From: a virus
Direction: 5' to 3' (one strand)
IMG/VR virus record: IMGVR_UViG_3300034096_000402
Span: 1-29,765 of that record
Length of the DNA stretch: 29,765 nucleotides
Part shown: in pieces, positions 1,312-29,765 of the stretch
Numbering within the stretch: the stretch's first letter is position 1
Layout: each line of letters opens with the position of its first letter
Translations under genes and position numbers: made by a program
The notes under the pieces: generated by a model
Database searches by the model: none
The model's input: only the letters and a program-made list of their open reading frames with translations
What the model was told of the DNA's origin: nothing

Positions 1312-3696
1312 TCAAAACATTATATCATTATCATCAATAATTGGAGCATTGTCATTTTTTATCTCAAACCATCTTTGACCATTGGAGTTCCCTGTCAAAT
1401 ATGTATGTCCATAAAATTTGCAATAGTGATCAAGCCATTGGGTGAATCTTTTTTGACTTAACTTATAAGTTTTAAAATCGGGATATTCGTTTATAAAGCT
1501 ATCATAATAAGTTTGTTTTATGCATCGTGTATTAAATTCAATATTCTCATTTTTACCTTCATTATTTGGTTTTGACCACTCATAAAATTCAAAAGAAGTA
1601 TTTTTAATGAATTTACGAACTTCTAAATTTTTAAAGTCGTGTTTAGTTAATCCGTTTTCTAAATAATATTGAACACAATTAATCATAAAATTGTCAAACA
1701 TTAACCATTCATTATCATCCCAATCATCAAAAAGCAAATGGCCAAACTCATCTAAAGGCGTATGCTTATAACTAAAATAGTCTGACATTTCAACCTCAAA
1801 TTTTCTTCTTTCAAATGATCCACCAACTCCTCCAATAGTATAATTTGTAGTTATTAATATTTTAGGACTTTGTTGAACTGGTAATTTAATAGCATCCTGG
1901 CCTTTGTACTCAAGGGTAATTCCTTCCGTAATTAAACTAAATAAACTTTCAAAATTAAAGTTCTTTTTTACATCATCAAAAACCAATATTTGTGTATCTG
2001 TGCTTACAGTTTGATAAGGAAAACTTTTTGTAAATTCAAATGTTTTCCCATCAATACTGCTTACTTTTTTAGTTTGACTTAATGCATTCCAAAACAAACC
2101 TTTTCCGCTTCCGCCATTAGGATTTTCGCTTATTGTTTCATCATTAAATATAATTGCTTTGTTATTTGCTGATGTTTTAAATGAATGTAAAAGGTAACCA
2201 ATTACAGATTTAAATGAATTATACTTTTCTACATTTTTACCGGATATCAACCATAAAAATTTTCTAAAAACAGCATTATGATGGTCATATTTTTGATACT
2301 CTCTATTTATAATTTGTCTTTTCCAAACAAAACCATCTAAATCTAAATAATCAATAGTTTCAATATTTTCAGATGTTACTTTTACAACACAATTATTGAA
2401 GTATAAAAAACATTCAGTTTGTGTATCTTCTTTTATATTTATTTCTGAACTTTCTAAAAAACTTAAAAAATCAGATTGAAAATATTTATTATTTGATGCC
2501 ATAAAATCATAAGGTTGAAAGCCTATATCATCACGACTTAATAAATGGTTTAGAACAAAATCTTTTATTTTCTTTTCACTTGTTTCCTCAACTAAATTTT
2601 GTTCAATTTTAATAAATGTAAAAGTATTGGCATCAGTTGGGAAATATTTAAAAAAGTTATTTTGTTGAAGCCAAAATTTATATTTATGAGGACTTAAATT
2701 TATCCTTCCTTTGTCATTATAAAACCAAAAATCTGAAACAGATATTTCCTCTTTTATATCGTCAATACAGCTTTCAATTTCTTCTTTTTTATATTCAGAG
2801 TAGTTTTCAATTACTTCTTTTTTATTCTTACCACTTCTTATTTGTTTCTCAATTTTTTCTTTAACTAATTTATCCTCAAAAAATTTAGTTCTAAAATTGG
2901 CAGTTTTTTTATATGCAGAGTTTAAAGTTGTTAAAATTTCCTTCCTGTCAAAATCTTCTTGTTCAAATTGATATAAAGTTTGTTCAGCTACATTTTTATC
3001 AATTCCAAAATCATTTAAAGCGGATGCTAATTTAAATATACTTTTATTTCTTTCATTAGGGTTGTACTTTTTTTCAAACCATTTTAAAAGATTATTTATT
3101 ATAATATTGTCAGATTTTATAGAAATTGAAACTGATTTTTTTCCTAAATCTTCAACCTCTGGAATCTCTATTTTTTCCCAAGTTTTAGAATCTTTATTAA
3201 TAAATAAATCCGGATCATAACTTTCAAAACAAAACCTACTTATATCAGAACCGCTATTATCCCATTTAGGATGGTTATAATATTCACGTAAAGAATTAAA
3301 ATATAAACTATGATTTTCAATGTCTTTTGGAATTTTAACTAAAGCTTTTACACCTTTACCACTTGGGGAAATCCAACAGCTAAAAATATAATCGTCATCA
3401 GATATTGAATTTCTAAAATCAATCGCATCTTGGGAAGTTTCAAATTTATCAAAATCTAAAATTATAAGACCAGAATGCTCTTTTATTCCTGCCTTTGATC
3501 TATAATTAAAAATACCATTAAAACAAACTCCAGGCAGTTGATTTTTATTTTTATCATAATCTATTTTTGGCAAAGTTCGTAACCACTCAACCATTTCTTT
3601 TGATTTACCTTGTCTTATTCTTTCAAGACAAAACAATACATCTTTATAAAATCCATTTGAAGTATCGTTTGATTTTCTATAAATAGTAACTATCAT
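1312..3696 (-). CDS. Primase-helicase (VirE N-terminal/PrimPol-like domain plus SF3-like helicase)
   Basis: The central replication protein of the phage. The N-terminal ~175 residues look like the BT4734/VirE_N branch of archaeo-eukaryotic primases: a metal-binding LDFD at 80-83, SPSGKG at 110-115, and SDISRF at 150-155. A lysine- and glutamate-rich linker follows. The C-terminal half has a helicase-like ATPase module of the DUF5906/SF3 type: GGSGKG (Walker A) at 528-533, LVFDD (Walker B) at 571-575, TTN (sensor) at 616-618 and ERRKFE (candidate arginine finger) at 629-634. Together these suggest origin melting or unwinding plus primer synthesis, with elongation by host polymerase because no phage polymerase is seen. 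It sits between a small upstream gene (2-base gap) and the SNF2-like helicase. The only large gene-free, iteron-bearing stretch lies just upstream of this operon. Confidence 0.85.
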   Translation of the reverse strand: MIVTIYRKSNDTSNGFYKDVLFCLERIRQGKSKEMVEWLRTLPKIDYDKNKNQLPGVCFNGIFNYRSKAGIKEHSGLIILDFDKFETSQDAIDFRNSISDDDYIFSCWISPSGKGVKALVKIPKDIENHSLYFNSLREYYNHPKWDNSGSDISRFCFESYDPDLFINKDSKTWEKIEIPEVEDLGKKSVSISIKSDNIIINNLLKWFEKKYNPNERNKSIFKLASALNDFGIDKNVAEQTLYQFEQEDFDRKEILTTLNSAYKKTANFRTKFFEDKLVKEKIEKQIRSGKNKKEVIENYSEYKKEEIESCIDDIKEEISVSDFWFYNDKGRINLSPHKYKFWLQQNNFFKYFPTDANTFTFIKIEQNLVEETSEKKIKDFVLNHLLSRDDIGFQPYDFMASNNKYFQSDFLSFLESSEINIKEDTQTECFLYFNNCVVKVTSENIETIDYLDLDGFVWKRQIINREYQKYDHHNAVFRKFLWLISGKNVEKYNSFKSVIGYLLHSFKTSANNKAIIFNDETISENPNGGSGKGLFWNALSQTKKVSSIDGKTFEFTKSFPYQTVSTDTQILVFDDVKKNFNFESLFSLITEGITLEYKGQDAIKLPVQQSPKILITTNYTIGGVGGSFERRKFEVEMSDYFSYKHTPLDEFGHLLFDDWDDNEWLMFDNFMINCVQYYLENGLTKHDFKNLEVRKFIKNTSFEFYEWSKPNNEGKNENIEFNTRCIKQTYYDSFINEYPDFKTYKLSQKRFTQWLDHYCKFYGHTYLTGNSNGQRWFEIKNDNAPIIDDNDIMF

Positions 3697-3698
3697 AA

Positions 3699-3944
3699 TT
3701 ATAAATCTTTAAAAGTTACAATTTTATGTTCTATCTCATACTCATTTAAAAATTCCCAAGCATCTGTTACTTTTGTTTTATCATAATCATTAGGTATAGA
3801 ATCCCAAATCACTGTTAAAATCCCTTTGTGATCATGTAATAAATAAATGTTATTAATATCAACTTGTATTAACATTTTTCTTAAAGTTCTTAATCTTTCA
3901 TCTGTGAAGCTTTCACCTCCACCATCTGTTCTTAAAATTTTCAT
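3699..3944 (-). CDS. Small protein of unknown function heading the primase operon
   Basis: An 81-residue soluble protein with no recognised domain. It begins MKILRTDGGGES, has a central hydrophobic strand pattern (NIYLLHDHKGILTVIWD) and a charged C-terminus. It is the first gene behind kissing-hairpin leader D and is followed after two bases by the primase-helicase. Its position suggests a replication-related or regulatory role, but the sequence does not show which. Confidence 0.75.
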   Translation of the reverse strand: MKILRTDGGGESFTDERLRTLRKMLIQVDINNIYLLHDHKGILTVIWDSIPNDYDKTKVTDAWEFLNEYEIEHKIVTFKDL

Positions 3945-3957
3945 TTTATATTTTTTT

Positions 3958-4041
3958 AAAAAGTTAATGCCCTACACCCACCGCTGGTAGTCGGTTTGCA
4001 TAAGGCATTGATAATATTTTAATTATAGCTACCAGACTACA
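3958..4041 (-). promoter_or_regulatory. Leader D: kissing-hairpin/terminator 5' leader of the primase operon
   Basis: Read on the minus strand. Hairpin 1 is UGUAG (4041-4037) with CUAUA (4028-4024), one G-U pair, and loop UCUGGUAG. Hairpin 2 is AAUGCCUUAU (4009-4000) with GUAGGGCAUU (3975-3966), ten pairs with two G-U. Its loop contains CUACCAG (3990-3984), perfectly complementary to CUGGUAG of loop 1 (4035-4029). A run of five U follows two to three bases after hairpin 2 (3962-3958), and the start codon is at 3944. The same architecture, with different sequence, precedes three other minus-strand operons. Confidence 0.7.
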
Positions 4042-4084: not shown

Positions 4085-4325
4085 TAAAAGTACACAAGTA
4101 CACATTGAAAGCCTTATATATATTATAGAAAAAAAACTTTTTTATTTTTTTTATTTTTTTTAGAAAAAAGTCAAATCAAAGTGTATATGTGTACTATTTT
4201 GTTGTAAACCCTTATATTTATTGACTTTAATAACAGTACACATTTTTAAAATAATGTGTACTTTATAGCTTTAAAAGTGTACTATTTAATAAAAAAAGTA
4301 AATTCAATACTTTAGTATTGAAATA
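4085..4325. other. Candidate replication origin: AGTACACA iterons and A/T-rich tracts
   Basis: Part of the gene-free stretch 3945-4372. The 8-mer AGTACACA occurs at 4089-4096 and 4097-4104 (head to tail), at 4235-4242, and inverted as TGTGTACT at 4188-4195 and 4255-4262; AGTGTACT at 4276-4283 is a 7-of-8 copy. The copies at 4235-4243 and 4254-4262 form a 9-bp inverted repeat. Between them lie long homopolymeric A and T runs (about 4129-4167), suitable for duplex opening. A 9-bp inverted repeat (4303-4311 with 4314-4322) follows. The stretch separates the SSB-like gene from the primase-helicase operon. An origin is inferred; the repeats could instead be operators. Confidence 0.5.
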
Positions 4326-4350
4326 AAAAAACCACCGGTTAAGGTGGTTT
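4325..4350 (-). terminator. Rho-independent terminator after the SSB-like gene
   Basis: On the minus strand, AAACCACC (4350-4343) pairs with GGTGGTTT (4336-4329) around a 6-base loop and runs into a T-tract. It lies about 20 bases after the stop of the SSB-like gene and closes the 5898-4373 operon before the iteron region. Confidence 0.8.
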
Positions 4351-5243: not shown

Positions 5244-5690
5244 TTACCAAGAGATCGCTAAAGTATCTTTACGTGGTGATGTGCTTACTCTTGTTACTTC
5301 AACACCATCATCATCGTAAATGCTTGAATTAGACTTTAACGCTACCTTCAGGAGCATTTCCCTTTCGTTTAGTTTTTCTTTGATTTCTGACCATTTAAAA
5401 TCATCTTTATAGTTTATGGTTTCACCACCATTTCTAAACGTTCCTTTAAGGCCAAAAGCCTCAAAGTTTTCCTGTGGCACTACTTCTAAAATTTTAGCAG
5501 TAATTACATCGAGTGCTTCTTGCATTCTTTTAGCTTGTGCCAGGAGTTCGTACTTGTCAACCTCGCCTCCATCTATAACATCAGTTATAAATTTTGTCGC
5601 AGAGAATTGGATCTCTTTTTTGTTTGGCAAGAAGTTTTGCGTTTGTACTTCTTGCTCTCTCATCATCTGAAATAAATCTTTATTACTCAT
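5244..5690 (-). CDS. Unknown protein of the SSB operon
   Basis: A 148-residue acidic protein that I cannot place in a family. Residues 1-20 are polar, a helical segment follows (YELLAQAKRMQEALDVITAKIL), and the C-terminal half looks like a small alpha/beta domain with GGETINY and IKEKLNEREMLLK. It overlaps the upstream small gene by 8 bases and lies directly before the pseudoknot leader of the SSB-like gene, so a replication or recombination accessory role is plausible. That is inference from position only. Confidence 0.8.
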   Translation of the reverse strand: MSNKDLFQMMREQEVQTQNFLPNKKEIQFSATKFITDVIDGGEVDKYELLAQAKRMQEALDVITAKILEVVPQENFEAFGLKGTFRNGGETINYKDDFKWSEIKEKLNEREMLLKVALKSNSSIYDDDGVEVTRVSTSPRKDTLAISW

Positions 5691-5898
5691 AAAATAGGTC
5701 TGATAGGTTAGTTATTGAAAAGCTTTTGTTACTCGTGTTTAAAATCAATGTATAAGCATCTGATATTGTCAGTAGAGAATACAAATAATTATCCTCTAAT
5801 GCTTTTACCAATCTTGCGTGGGAGTTTGGATAAATTTCTTTCATCACTTCCAACTGCTCTTTGTGTTCTTCTTTTAAATTGTCAAATAGTGTTTTCAT
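5683..5898 (-). CDS. Small unknown protein, first gene of the SSB operon
   Basis: A 71-residue, probably helical protein starting MKTLFDNLKEEHKEQ. Codon choice and the 8-base overlap with the next gene support coding. It is the first open frame behind leader C, whose start codon lies 12 bases after the U-run. Function is unknown. Confidence 0.75.
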   Translation of the reverse strand: MKTLFDNLKEEHKEQLEVMKEIYPNSHARLVKALEDNYLYSLLTISDAYTLILNTSNKSFSITNLSDLFYE

Positions 5899-5910: not shown

Positions 5911-5996
5911 AAAAAATCCCTTCCAATTCAAACGAGGTCAGTCGTAAGGTCAGAAGGGAATTAGTTATGTTTTGGTTTAGAGTTCTGACCAACTCG
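5911..5996 (-). promoter_or_regulatory. Leader C: kissing-hairpin/terminator 5' leader of the SSB operon
   Basis: Read on the minus strand. Hairpin 1 is GAGUU (5995-5991) with AACUC (5984-5980) around the 6-nt loop GGUCAG. After about 20 AU-rich bases, hairpin 2 is UCCCUUC (5959-5953) with GAAGGGA (5923-5917), followed by six U (5916-5911). The hairpin 2 loop contains CUGACC (5941-5936), exactly complementary to loop 1. A second CUGACC overlaps the base of the stem (5953-5948), so this copy has two possible partners. The start codon is at 5898. Confidence 0.68.
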
Positions 5997-6000
5997 GTTA

Positions 6001-6008
6001 CAAATATA
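6001..6008 (-). promoter_or_regulatory. Promoter of the SSB operon with both -7 and -33 boxes
   Basis: TATATTTG on the minus strand (6008-6001) with TTTG at 6031-6028, separated by exactly 19 bases: an excellent match to the Bacteroidetes TTTG-N19-TAnnTTTG promoter. It lies 25 bases after the stop of the preceding small gene and six bases before hairpin 1 of leader C. Confidence 0.8.
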
Positions 6009-7659: not shown

Positions 7660-7690
7660 CAAATATAGTTATTTATAATAAACTACCAAA
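7660..7690 (-). promoter_or_regulatory. Strong early promoter (TTTG-N19-TATATTTG)
   Basis: Minus-strand -7 box TATATTTG (7667-7660) and -33 box TTTG (7690-7687) with a 19-base spacer. This is one of the two best consensus promoters in the window. It drives the tiny-gene operon 7628-6033 and lies back to back with the plus-strand promoter at 7714. Confidence 0.8.
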
Positions 7691-28241: not shown

Positions 28242-28483
28242 AATTCAAAATTTAGTTTGCTTTCGTAAATTGTATAAACTTCTTCATTCTCAAAATCAAA
28301 ATGTAAATTGTTTTGAGATATCTGTTCTAAAAAGGATTGTATAATAAATAATTGATAAAAGCTATATCCTTTTTTATTTCCGCAAATTATTTTTGGCCTT
28401 AACTCATTGGAGTCAATTATTCTTCTTATAAATCCAAAATCAACATCGCAAAACTCTGCTATATTTTTAATTGTGTAAATCAT
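28238..28483 (-). CDS. MerR-like small DNA-binding protein (81 aa)
   Basis: YTIKNIAEFCDVDFGFIRRI followed by IDSNELRPKIICGNKKGYSF, then a YQLFIIQSFLE helix, has the order of a MerR/excisionase-type winged helix-turn-helix. No integrase is present, so a transcription role is more likely than excision. It is coupled to both neighbours by ATGA overlaps. Confidence 0.65.
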   Translation of the reverse strand: MIYTIKNIAEFCDVDFGFIRRIIDSNELRPKIICGNKKGYSFYQLFIIQSFLEQISQNNLHFDFENEEVYTIYESKLNFEL

Positions 28484-28716
28484 ACTTTTGAAATAAAATT
28501 GTTAAACGGATCAAACTCAAAAGCAAAGAACTCATCTTTGTCTAAATACCTAAAGCTGTAAATAGTTCCATGCAGTAATAATTTATTTACCCATTGTGCC
28601 GGTTTGGTTCTTACTATTTCAACACCACTCAACCTAAATGGTCTGCCACTCTTTGAAATTTGCGTATTAAAGTGGTTAATGTCAATTTTAAATCCCTGTA
28701 CTGATATTGTATTCAT
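28480..28716 (-). CDS. Unknown protein (78 aa) heading the regulator operon
   Basis: Starts MNTISVQGFKIDINHFNTQI and contains SKSGRPFRLSGVEIVRTKPA; appears beta-rich. ATG 28716 is chosen; the longer frame from TTG 28740 begins inside the stem of the leader terminator hairpin and is unlikely. First gene behind leader B. Function is unknown. Confidence 0.68.
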   Translation of the reverse strand: MNTISVQGFKIDINHFNTQISKSGRPFRLSGVEIVRTKPAQWVNKLLLHGTIYSFRYLDKDEFFAFEFDPFNNFISKV

Positions 28717-28728
28717 ATTTTTTAAATT

Positions 28729-28809
28729 AAAAACCCGCAAATCAAAAGGTCGTCGTCTTTATCATTGCGGGAATTAAACAAATTTTTAAATGTAGCGACG
28801 ACTCTACAT
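28729..28809 (-). promoter_or_regulatory. Leader B: kissing-hairpin/terminator 5' leader
   Basis: Read on the minus strand. Hairpin 1 is AUGUAG (28809-28804) with CUACAU (28795-28790) and loop AGUCGUCG. Hairpin 2 is CCCGCAA (28771-28765) with UUGCGGG (28740-28734), followed by five U (28733-28729). Its loop holds CGACGAC (28755-28749), complementary to GUCGUCG of loop 1 (28802-28796). The loop matches leader A except for one base, and that change is compensated in loop 1. Confidence 0.72.
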
Positions 28810-28812
28810 CGG

Positions 28813-28820
28813 CAAATATA
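28813..28820 (-). promoter_or_regulatory. Promoter of the regulator operon
   Basis: TATATTTG on the minus strand, four bases before hairpin 1 of leader B and six bases after the end of the VRR-NUC gene. No -33 TTTG at the expected spacing. Confidence 0.65.
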
Positions 28821-28825
28821 AACAA

Positions 28826-29080
28826 TTAATTATAATTTACATCATAATCAACCCAAATTTTACAATCAAATCCTAAATCTTGTAATTGTTTGATTCTTAT
28901 CTTTTGCAATTCACTCAACTTTCCATTTGGCCTTTTAACTTCAATGAACATTGTTCCGCCATCTTTTAGGCACATCAAATCCGGTATGCCGTTCTTATTT
29001 GTTTTTATTAGTTTAACGACTAACCACCCATTATTTTCTAATTTTTTTTTAATTTTAGTTTGTATTTGTTGCTCTGTCAT
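28826..29080 (-). CDS. VRR-NUC domain nuclease
   Basis: A small PD-(D/E)xK nuclease of the VRR-NUC family, probably acting on branched or recombination intermediates. The signature is complete: an N-terminal helix with a possible catalytic glutamate, GIPDLM (D34), FIEVKRP (E47, K49), and GKLSELQKIR with Q59, then FDCKIW. The 84-residue stand-alone domain is the usual phage form. Its start overlaps the HNH gene stop at ATGA. Confidence 0.9.
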   Translation of the reverse strand: MTEQQIQTKIKKKLENNGWLVVKLIKTNKNGIPDLMCLKDGGTMFIEVKRPNGKLSELQKIRIKQLQDLGFDCKIWVDYDVNYN

Positions 29081-29589
29081 AATATTCGTAATTGTTTCTC
29101 TATTATTTTTGAAGCCTTATTTAAATTATCTATTGCAAATAGTGGCTGAAAATTAGTATAATGATTTAAATCTAAAACATCTTTTTCTGTTATAGCTGTA
29201 GATAAAGGTTTTATATGATCTAAATGAATGTTATTCCAATTCATTCCATTTATAAATTGAGATTCAATAAAATTCTTAAAAAAATCATAATCACATCCTA
29301 AAATATTATATGTAGAACTTCTTTTAGTAAATCCTTTCTTTTTAATGGATGCATTTATATTTTTTCTTATTTTGCATTTTAAACAATATAAATAATCCGT
29401 TTTTCTTCTATTATTTCTATATATTTTTCTTTTTTCTTTAGCCTTTTCATATTGCATTTTCATTTTTTCTTTATTATTATCTCTATATATTTTTCTCTTT
29501 ATATATATTTCTTCTTTATTTTCTTCTCTGTATTTTTTATATTTTTCTTTATTTTTTTGATAATAATTTCTAAAATATTCTTTGTCCAT
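29077..29589 (-). CDS. HNH endonuclease
   Basis: The N-terminal ~60 residues are extremely lysine-, tyrosine- and asparagine-rich with repeated KEKYKKYREENKEE-like units, probably a DNA-contacting arm. A YCLKC pair follows at residues 68-72. The HNH core is at 121-160: IHLDHIKPLS (D124, H125), TNFQPL (N146) and NLNKASK (N157, K158). ATG 29589 is chosen; the TTG at 29604 lies inside the leader hairpin. Unlike many cos phages, this gene is not next to the terminase, so a packaging role is uncertain; homing or host DNA degradation are alternatives. Confidence 0.83.
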   Translation of the reverse strand: MDKEYFRNYYQKNKEKYKKYREENKEEIYIKRKIYRDNNKEKMKMQYEKAKEKRKIYRNNRRKTDYLYCLKCKIRKNINASIKKKGFTKRSSTYNILGCDYDFFKNFIESQFINGMNWNNIHLDHIKPLSTAITEKDVLDLNHYTNFQPLFAIDNLNKASKIIEKQLRIL

Positions 29590-29595
29590 AAAAGT

Positions 29596-29674
29596 AAAAA
29601 CCAACGCTTCAAAAGGTGGTCGTCTTTATCAGCGTTGGAATTTTATTATATTATAAATTAGGCGACCACTCCTA
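29596..29674 (-). promoter_or_regulatory. Leader A: kissing-hairpin/terminator 5' leader of the nuclease operon
   Basis: Read on the minus strand. Hairpin 1 is UAGG (29674-29671) with CCUA (29662-29659) and loop AGUGGUCG. Hairpin 2 is CCAACGCU (29638-29631) with AGCGUUGG (29608-29601), followed by five U (29600-29596). Its loop contains CGACCAC (29622-29616), perfectly complementary to GUGGUCG of loop 1 (29669-29663). The start codon is six bases after the U-run. Confidence 0.72.
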
Positions 29675-29765
29675 TATTACAAATATACAAAAATAAACAT
29701 TATGTCGTTTGCTTTTGCTCTGCCTTTTTGATTCCGAAATCTCGTTTAAATGTTTCATTGTTATA
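29639..29765. repeat. Terminal direct repeat (right copy)
   Basis: Exact second copy of bases 1-127. It contains the promoter and hairpin 1 of leader A and the 3' end of the SNF2-like helicase gene, showing that the sequence closes into a circle. Confidence 0.9.
29680..29687 (-). promoter_or_regulatory. Promoter of the HNH/VRR-NUC operon (right copy)
   Basis: The same TATATTTG box as at 42-49, here shown contiguous with leader A. It ends six bases before hairpin 1. Confidence 0.65.

Follow-up and report, generated by a model that had tools for sequence, protein, structure and literature searches.

Leader RNAs with covarying kissing hairpins at internal promoters of phages of Flavobacteria-like bacteria

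Leaders and genes of the window

The window, by which we mean the whole stretch of viral DNA analysed (29,765 nt; IMG/VR record IMGVR_UViG_3300034096_000402), carries 127 identical nucleotides at positions 1–127 and 29639–29765, which indicates a circular or terminally redundant contig, and because of these identical ends leader A is partly present at the window start as well (minus strand). Four leaders (A–D) lie on the minus strand within a leftward gene array, each directly 3′ of the Bacteroidetes-type promoter TATATTTG. Their placement and the complementarity of their loops, as claimed by an earlier sequence-only reading, were confirmed by the sequence and by a motif-free finder that looked for TAnnTTTG, a hairpin, a terminator-like hairpin with a U-run and a kiss of at least 6 nt.

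29680–29687, minus strand: −7 element TATATTTG of the leader A promoter (consensus TAnnTTTG)
29659–29674, minus strand: leader A hairpin 1, TAGG / loop AGTGGTCG / CCTA, starting at about +2 (finder, RNAfold)
29601–29638, minus strand: leader A hairpin 2, CCAACGC, TGAT, AAAG, loop ACGACCAC, CTTT, TGAA, GCGTTGG (finder, alignment, RNAfold)
29596–29600, minus strand: leader A U-run, TTTTT (sequence)
29077–29589, minus strand: gene 3′ of leader A, weak endonuclease VII (HNH-like) match (phrog_1035, E=1e-4)
28813–28820, minus strand: leader B promoter TATATTTG (sequence)
28792–28807, minus strand: leader B hairpin 1, GTAG / AGTCGTCG / CTAC (finder, RNAfold)
28734–28771, minus strand: leader B hairpin 2, CCCGCAA, TGAT, AAAG, loop ACGACGAC, CTTT, TGAT, TTGCGGG (finder, alignment, RNAfold)
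28729–28733, minus strand: leader B U-run (sequence)
28480–28716, minus strand: gene 3′ of leader B, 78 aa, without family, at the start of a leftward gene array
6001–6008, minus strand: leader C promoter TATATTTG (sequence)
5980–5995, minus strand: leader C hairpin 1, GAGTT / GGTCAG / AACTC (finder, RNAfold)
5917–5959, minus strand: leader C hairpin 2, TCCCTTC ... ACGA / loop CTGACC / TCGT ... GAAGGGA (finder, RNAfold)
5911–5916, minus strand: leader C U-run (sequence)
5683–5898, minus strand: gene 3′ of leader C, 71 aa
4046–4053, minus strand: leader D promoter TATATTTG (sequence)
4025–4040, minus strand: leader D hairpin 1, GTAG / TCTGGTAG / CTAT (finder with relaxed G-U limit, RNAfold)
3966–4009, minus strand: leader D hairpin 2, 12-bp lower stem AATGCCTTATGC/GTGTAGGGCATT, upper stem ACCG/CGGT, loop ACTACCAG (finder, RNAfold)
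3958–3962, minus strand: leader D U-run, beginning 3 nt past the AU-ended stem (sequence)
1312–3944, minus strand: genes 3′ of leader D, an 81-aa protein followed by a primase/helicase-like protein (BT4734-N + PriCT_1)

The order of parts in A–D is promoter, 5 nt, hairpin 1 (H1), an AU-rich linker of 15–20 nt, hairpin 2 (H2), a U-run and the start codon. H1 has a stem of 4–5 bp. H2 consists of a lower stem of at least 7 bp and, separated from it by an internal loop, an upper stem of 4 bp: AAAG/CTTT for leaders A and B, ACGA/TCGT for C and ACCG/CGGT for D. The upper stem carries an apical loop with the kissing bases; this loop and that of H1 both measure 6 nt in C and 8 nt in the other three leaders. 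The loops pair as AGTGGTCG with ACGACCAC in A (7 nt), AGTCGTCG with ACGACGAC in B, GGTCAG with CTGACC in C and TCTGGTAG with ACTACCAG in D. For each of the four window leaders, unconstrained RNAfold yields H1 and H2, including the upper stem of H2. The open loop of 22–29 nt that the sequence-only reading had given H2 is wrong, its place being taken by the 4-bp upper stem and a 6–8 nt apical loop. Because the upper stem presents an apical loop of this size, the H2 loop is a proper kissing loop, and each leader is predicted to be a true loop–loop kissing complex.

Relative to mapped start sites, TAnnTTTG occupies −12 to −5 in F. psychrophilum and F. johnsoniae (PMC9723704, PMC6847099); with the same spacing in the phages, H1 starts at about +2 and the transcript opens with a hairpin. 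The leaders are thus predicted to form the very start of the RNA made from internal phage promoters. At the other end, the H2 lower stems mostly open with CCC, CCA, TCC or GCC and are GC-rich at the end adjacent to the U-run, as in a terminator; this GC-rich stem base stands directly 5′ of the U-run, with the exception of leader D (a 3-nt gap and an AU-ended stem). The short loop of an intrinsic terminator (3–8 nt) is absent, since about 24 nt with an internal hairpin lie between the lower stem arms, and a simple terminator scan, whose loop limit of 3–8 nt is exceeded by H2, did not call it. The UGAU/UGAU internal loop was considered as a conserved k-turn or ligand pocket, a reading that was rejected because this loop varies or is absent in other leader classes. 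An extra small hairpin inside the linker was seen in L239 (at 252 and 3342), L030 (at 8045) and L209 (at 12598, minus strand).

In the window the motif-free finder recovered A, B and C, and D too once up to three G-U pairs were permitted, against a mean of 0.065 matches and a maximum of 1 in 200 dinucleotide shuffles of the window. Across 30 related phage contigs and the window, 48 of 90 arrangements of promoter, H1 and terminator-like H2 kiss over at least 6 nt, where about 2.3 would be expected from shuffled loops; the contigs were mostly picked for an A/B-type leader and part of this excess is selection, while the leaders in them that are unrelated in sequence to A/B were not selected for. 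When the scan required no promoter, TAnnTTTG was still found at most 24 nt upstream in 42 of 54 kissing candidates, 41 of which also had a U-run, and removal of the U-run requirement added only 12 candidates, nearly all in apparent coding sequence. Promoter, kiss and U-run thus belong together, and the hairpin at +2 and an ATG 8–25 nt further on co-occur with them.

Covariation among homologues

Covariation had been claimed from the four copies of the window, which are paralogues within one genome and insufficient for the purpose; homologues elsewhere supply it in abundance. An exact IMG/VR scan for TGATAAAGACGACNACCTTTTGA returned 66 contig stretches, essentially all with a complete leader. 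A loop-free IMG/VR pattern (TTTGN{34,60}TGATAAAGN8CTTTTGA) also gave many chance matches in coding sequence, which were easily separated, and the genuine matches contained about 11 loop sequences, each with a perfect 7-nt complement in H1. The kissing pairs found in this way included GTCGTCG/CGACGAC, GTCGTAG/CTACGAC, GTGGTCG/CGACCAC, GTGGACG/CGTCCAC, GTAGTGG/CCACTAC, GTGGTAG/CTACCAC, GTGGAAG/CTTCCAC, GTAGTCG/CGACTAC, GGACTAG/CTAGTCC and GTCGCCG/CGGCGAC.

Pair counting over 38 aligned A/B leaders gave standard pairs in 98.8% of paired cells, with both sides changed in 17 of 22 pairs (counts that, the homologues being related, do not represent independent events). A lack of covariation among homologues had been named as one of the results that would speak against the family; instead, the kissing helix was 100% paired with five of its seven pairs doubly changed, and none of 500 shuffles attained any of five pairing measures. 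Sliding the partners by 1–3 columns lowered the pairing to 30–53%. With H1 and the loop fixed and the rest left free, the upper stem was found to covary too (AAAG/CTTT, AGAG/CTCT, TCAG/CTGA, AAGA/TCTT). Orthologues of the leader D gene carry the kiss CTGGTAG/CTACCAG or GTGGTAG/CTACCAC, and those of the leader C gene keep GGTCAG/CTGACC while H1 stems and H2 upper stems are swapped (ACGA/TCGT, ACAT/ATGT, TGTA/TACA). Leader D was scored by the A/B covariance model at E=6e-4; covariance-model searches are conservative here because the model cannot hold the kiss. The homologue alignment supports a covarying family of kissing leaders with a terminator-like second hairpin before phage operons. That the RNA fold is real we regard as practically certain, and the comparison indicates that a kiss of 6–8 Watson–Crick pairs is under strict selection, with stems, linker and loop sequence free to vary.

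Classes and distribution

Run over all the DNA collected, the motif-free finder gave 150 unique leaders, of which 71 fall outside the GATAAAG type, and slightly wider limits gave about 170 with more than 30 loop pairs, a few of which are chance matches. Some classes share no sequence with A–D, for example those with the loops AATGGTAC, ACTGGAAC, CATCCAC, GCATCTC, GATCCAC, GCTCAAC and GCACTAC. Named carriers are Flavobacterium phages of the mumin/hattifnatt group (three leaders in MN812207 at 9358, 13299 and 14334), an Elemovirus (MT497078.1) with a leader before replication genes, and Croceibacter phage P2559S with a leader at about 33901. One Hattifnattvirus leader precedes a NUMOD4 endonuclease gene. 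The Elemovirus leader, GTGGAGG/CCTCCAC, lies between a tRNA-Met gene and the replication genes (L281 20252–20375, minus strand). In P2559S the annotated start of P2559S_48 falls inside the leader (L332 about 1902–2005; JQ867099.1 33901–34004), and the likely start is the ATG past the U-run.

No leader was found in crAss001, B40-8, BT-TP2, phi10:1, phi46:1, Leef_1 and FPSV-S1, some of which were covered short of their 3′-most bases; P12024S gave a single doubtful match of 6 nt and no other. A bacterial house-keeping element was rejected: a pattern scan of bacterial genomes gave 21 matches with one real leader, that of L152, a MAG contig with a C-type leader and phage-type genes as well. The A/B covariance model found none in 395 Bacteroidia genomes (stricter filters, no positive control, A/B type only). 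The A/B leaders are phage elements.

Rfam searches at the gathering score returned nothing in the window and only tRNAs in seven loci with other leader classes, and a permissive search of four loci gave chance plastid matches only, so that a known RNA family was rejected and the earlier statement that no named family has this layout held. No description of this leader layout was found in the open-access literature, and it is apparently an RNA element of these phages that is new to description.

Genomic context of the leaders

The ATG lies 8–25 nt 3′ of H2 in most leaders, and 145 of 151 are followed within 120 nt by an ORF of 40 aa or more (20 aa or more where the ORF is cut). Upstream, a same-strand ORF ends at most 200 nt away in 128 of 140. 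Where the neighbourhood was clear, all 43 leader promoters stood behind a same-strand gene and none was divergent, whereas of 113 leaderless promoters 88 stood behind such a gene and 25 did not (Fisher p=1.7e-4, in related genomes). Leaders were seen only at promoters internal to co-directional gene arrays. The same holds in the window, where the leaders had been described simply as preceding four operons: all four internal leftward promoters carry them, but the first promoter of the array (7660–7667, minus strand) has an ordinary 5′ UTR without a kissing leader. The portal-type promoter of the window (20828) and the rightward promoters on the structural side have short ordinary 5′ UTRs. The operons are inferred to be early from gene content only.

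A/B leaders mostly precede homing endonucleases, with 27 HNH_3, 23 NUMOD4 and 5 GIY-YIG matches in a sample of 47 proteins 3′ of them. Such numbers would suit a signature of homing-endonuclease mobile cassettes whose fold has no regulatory function. This we consider scarcely credible, because leaders of other classes stand before genes of primase, helicase, ERF, methylase, VRR-NUC and HNH type and because the compensatory changes in the kiss show that the fold itself is selected, so that the covariation refutes the cassette as a full explanation. In L019, L023, L029, L042, L051 and L058 a near-identical promoter and A/B leader are followed by ‘TTTT(A/T)TTTTATATAACG’ and then by wholly unrelated sequence, as would result from a swap of cargo immediately 3′ of the leader.

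The position of the leaders also bears on operon punctuation, in which H2 would stop transcription arriving from the upstream gene and locally started transcripts would escape through the kiss with their 5′-terminal H1. The same-strand gene before every one of the 43 leaders, an upstream stop codon often 0–30 nt before the promoter (too tight for another terminator) and the leaderless first promoter of the array are consistent with this proposal. We nevertheless hold it to be quite improbable, since an ordinary terminator already precedes some leader promoters (at about 4340 before D in the window; L002 and L003) and since no discrimination between transcripts was found. Disruption of H1 by upstream RNA in readthrough transcripts was considered as such a means and rejected: the pairing probability of H1 drops with any upstream RNA, and real sequences disrupt it no more than shuffled (p=0.89) or swapped ones (p=0.42). 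The window terminator is of the ordinary short-loop kind (4320–4345, minus strand; ACCACC TTAA CCGGTGGT TTTTTTT) and closes the leader C operon well before leader D, and because of it H2 of leader D is not needed for stopping upstream transcripts.

Possible mechanism

Our preferred reading, to which we give slightly less than an even chance, is that the leader is a cis-acting RNA with a promoter-proximal terminator (an attenuator) whose read-through is controlled by the kiss. H2 with its U-run would terminate a share of transcripts, and the kiss would set how often RNA polymerase passes H2. RNA polymerase makes both kissing partners ahead of the 3′ arm of H2, and the kiss can therefore form first and bias the closure of H2. 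We lean towards a kiss that favours read-through; candidate triggers would be a phage or host factor, the time of infection or the transcript’s own short form acting in trans. The strict mutual exclusion proposed for guanidine-IV is not forced here, because the linker of about 20 nt would let the kiss and a complete H2 coexist in most leaders. By a rough rigid-stack estimate the ratio of needed to available linker length is mostly about 0.5, and the idea of a linker too short for both structures at once was rejected. It counts against attenuation that a constantly formed kiss would leave no obvious switch.

Translational control fits too, because H2 sits 8–25 nt from the ATG. The leader might accordingly serve 5′ stabilisation or translational control, with the U-run as a linker, an alternative that we consider unlikely but deserving of attention. 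An H1 at about +2, on the start sites of F. psychrophilum and F. johnsoniae (PMC9723704, PMC6847099), would suit it, as would the tuning of translation by structure near the start codon in F. johnsoniae (PMC6847099) and the control of translation by 5′ hairpins in T4 homing-endonuclease genes (PMC2988022). However, it leaves unexplained why, in nearly all classes, the U-run comes directly after a stem with a GC-rich base, and why leaders avoid divergent and late promoters. The T4-type hairpins (I-TevI, mobE, segB) resemble the leaders as structured RNA before homing-endonuclease genes (PMC2988022), but they hide the Shine–Dalgarno site and late transcripts avoid them, whereas here the promoter lies upstream of the entire fold, and replication genes too are preceded by this architecture.

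If H2 terminates, the freed RNA of about 75 nt could be a small or immunity RNA that, in the manner of P4 CI RNA, uses its loops in trans against copies of its leader carried by superinfecting or sister genomes. The leader would be a compact, self-terminating unit, which suits this reading. A loop 6-mer was shared in none of 61 pairs of leaders from the same genome against 6.9 expected, but this signal is confounded by the choice of genomes and is not significant without the A/B leaders by which the genomes were picked, so that within-genome orthogonality of loops was rejected. With a gene following nearly all leaders (145 of 151), we judge a small RNA very unlikely.

Comparison with known systems

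The sequence-only reading likened the leaders to HK022 put, a weak comparison. That phage RNA, about 70 nt long, forms two stem-loops immediately downstream of an early promoter (PMC9378689), and the leaders are alike in size, in having two hairpins and in their place directly after a phage promoter, as at putL (PMC9378689). A folded leader of about 75 nt might in the same manner bind RNA polymerase and make it resistant to downstream terminators. However, put is conserved in sequence, contacts the zinc-binding domain of RNA polymerase β′ (PMC9378689), retains the bases needed for that contact and acts on distant terminators, whereas the leaders conserve architecture only, share no sequence between classes (compared with put by description), form a kiss and end in a U-run of their own. 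Since the put contacts require conserved nucleotides, a put-like antiterminator appears highly improbable.

By analogy, the guanidine-IV riboswitch, in which two hairpins are joined by a pseudoknot and the 3′ hairpin is a regulated terminator (PMC9788692), is a closer functional analogue than put. Guanidine-IV (mepA) and its variant Gd4v have, as do the leaders, two hairpins, a loop–loop pseudoknot and a terminator-like 3′ hairpin with a U-run. They also have many conserved nucleotides around the pseudoknot, which form the ligand site, whereas the loops of the leaders vary freely while pairing, with more than 30 loop pairs and no loop sequence common to the classes. The leaders further differ in being carried by phages, in having H1 at the 5′ end of the transcript and in lacking a match in the Rfam copy used. 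Kissing hairpins with 6–7 bp between loops control plasmid copy number in ColE1 (RNAI/RNAII) and pT181, and in the pT181 type the kiss controls a terminator; in these plasmids the kiss forms between two RNAs, in the leaders within one.

Significance

The leaders may represent a class of gene-control RNA defined by architecture only, in which terminators at internal promoters are self-addressed and a 5′-terminal hairpin is the key to the terminator loop. Key and lock would be arbitrary and would diversify between leaders, which may stop cross-action within a genome or between competing phages; we put this forward as an unlikely possibility. Similar architecture-only RNAs may exist elsewhere, because sequence-based searches would miss most members.

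The finding adds a widespread RNA element to the phages of Flavobacteria-like bacteria, whose gene control is poorly known, and direct testing is possible because cultured environmental phage–host pairs carry the leader (phages of Flavobacterium sp. LMO6/LMO9 and BAL314). As only the pairing is conserved and many natural compensatory variants are on offer, the leaders provide a clean natural system for the effects of kissing loops on co-transcriptional folding and termination. The leader also marks phage genes under putative common control, namely those for homing endonucleases, replication and recombination.
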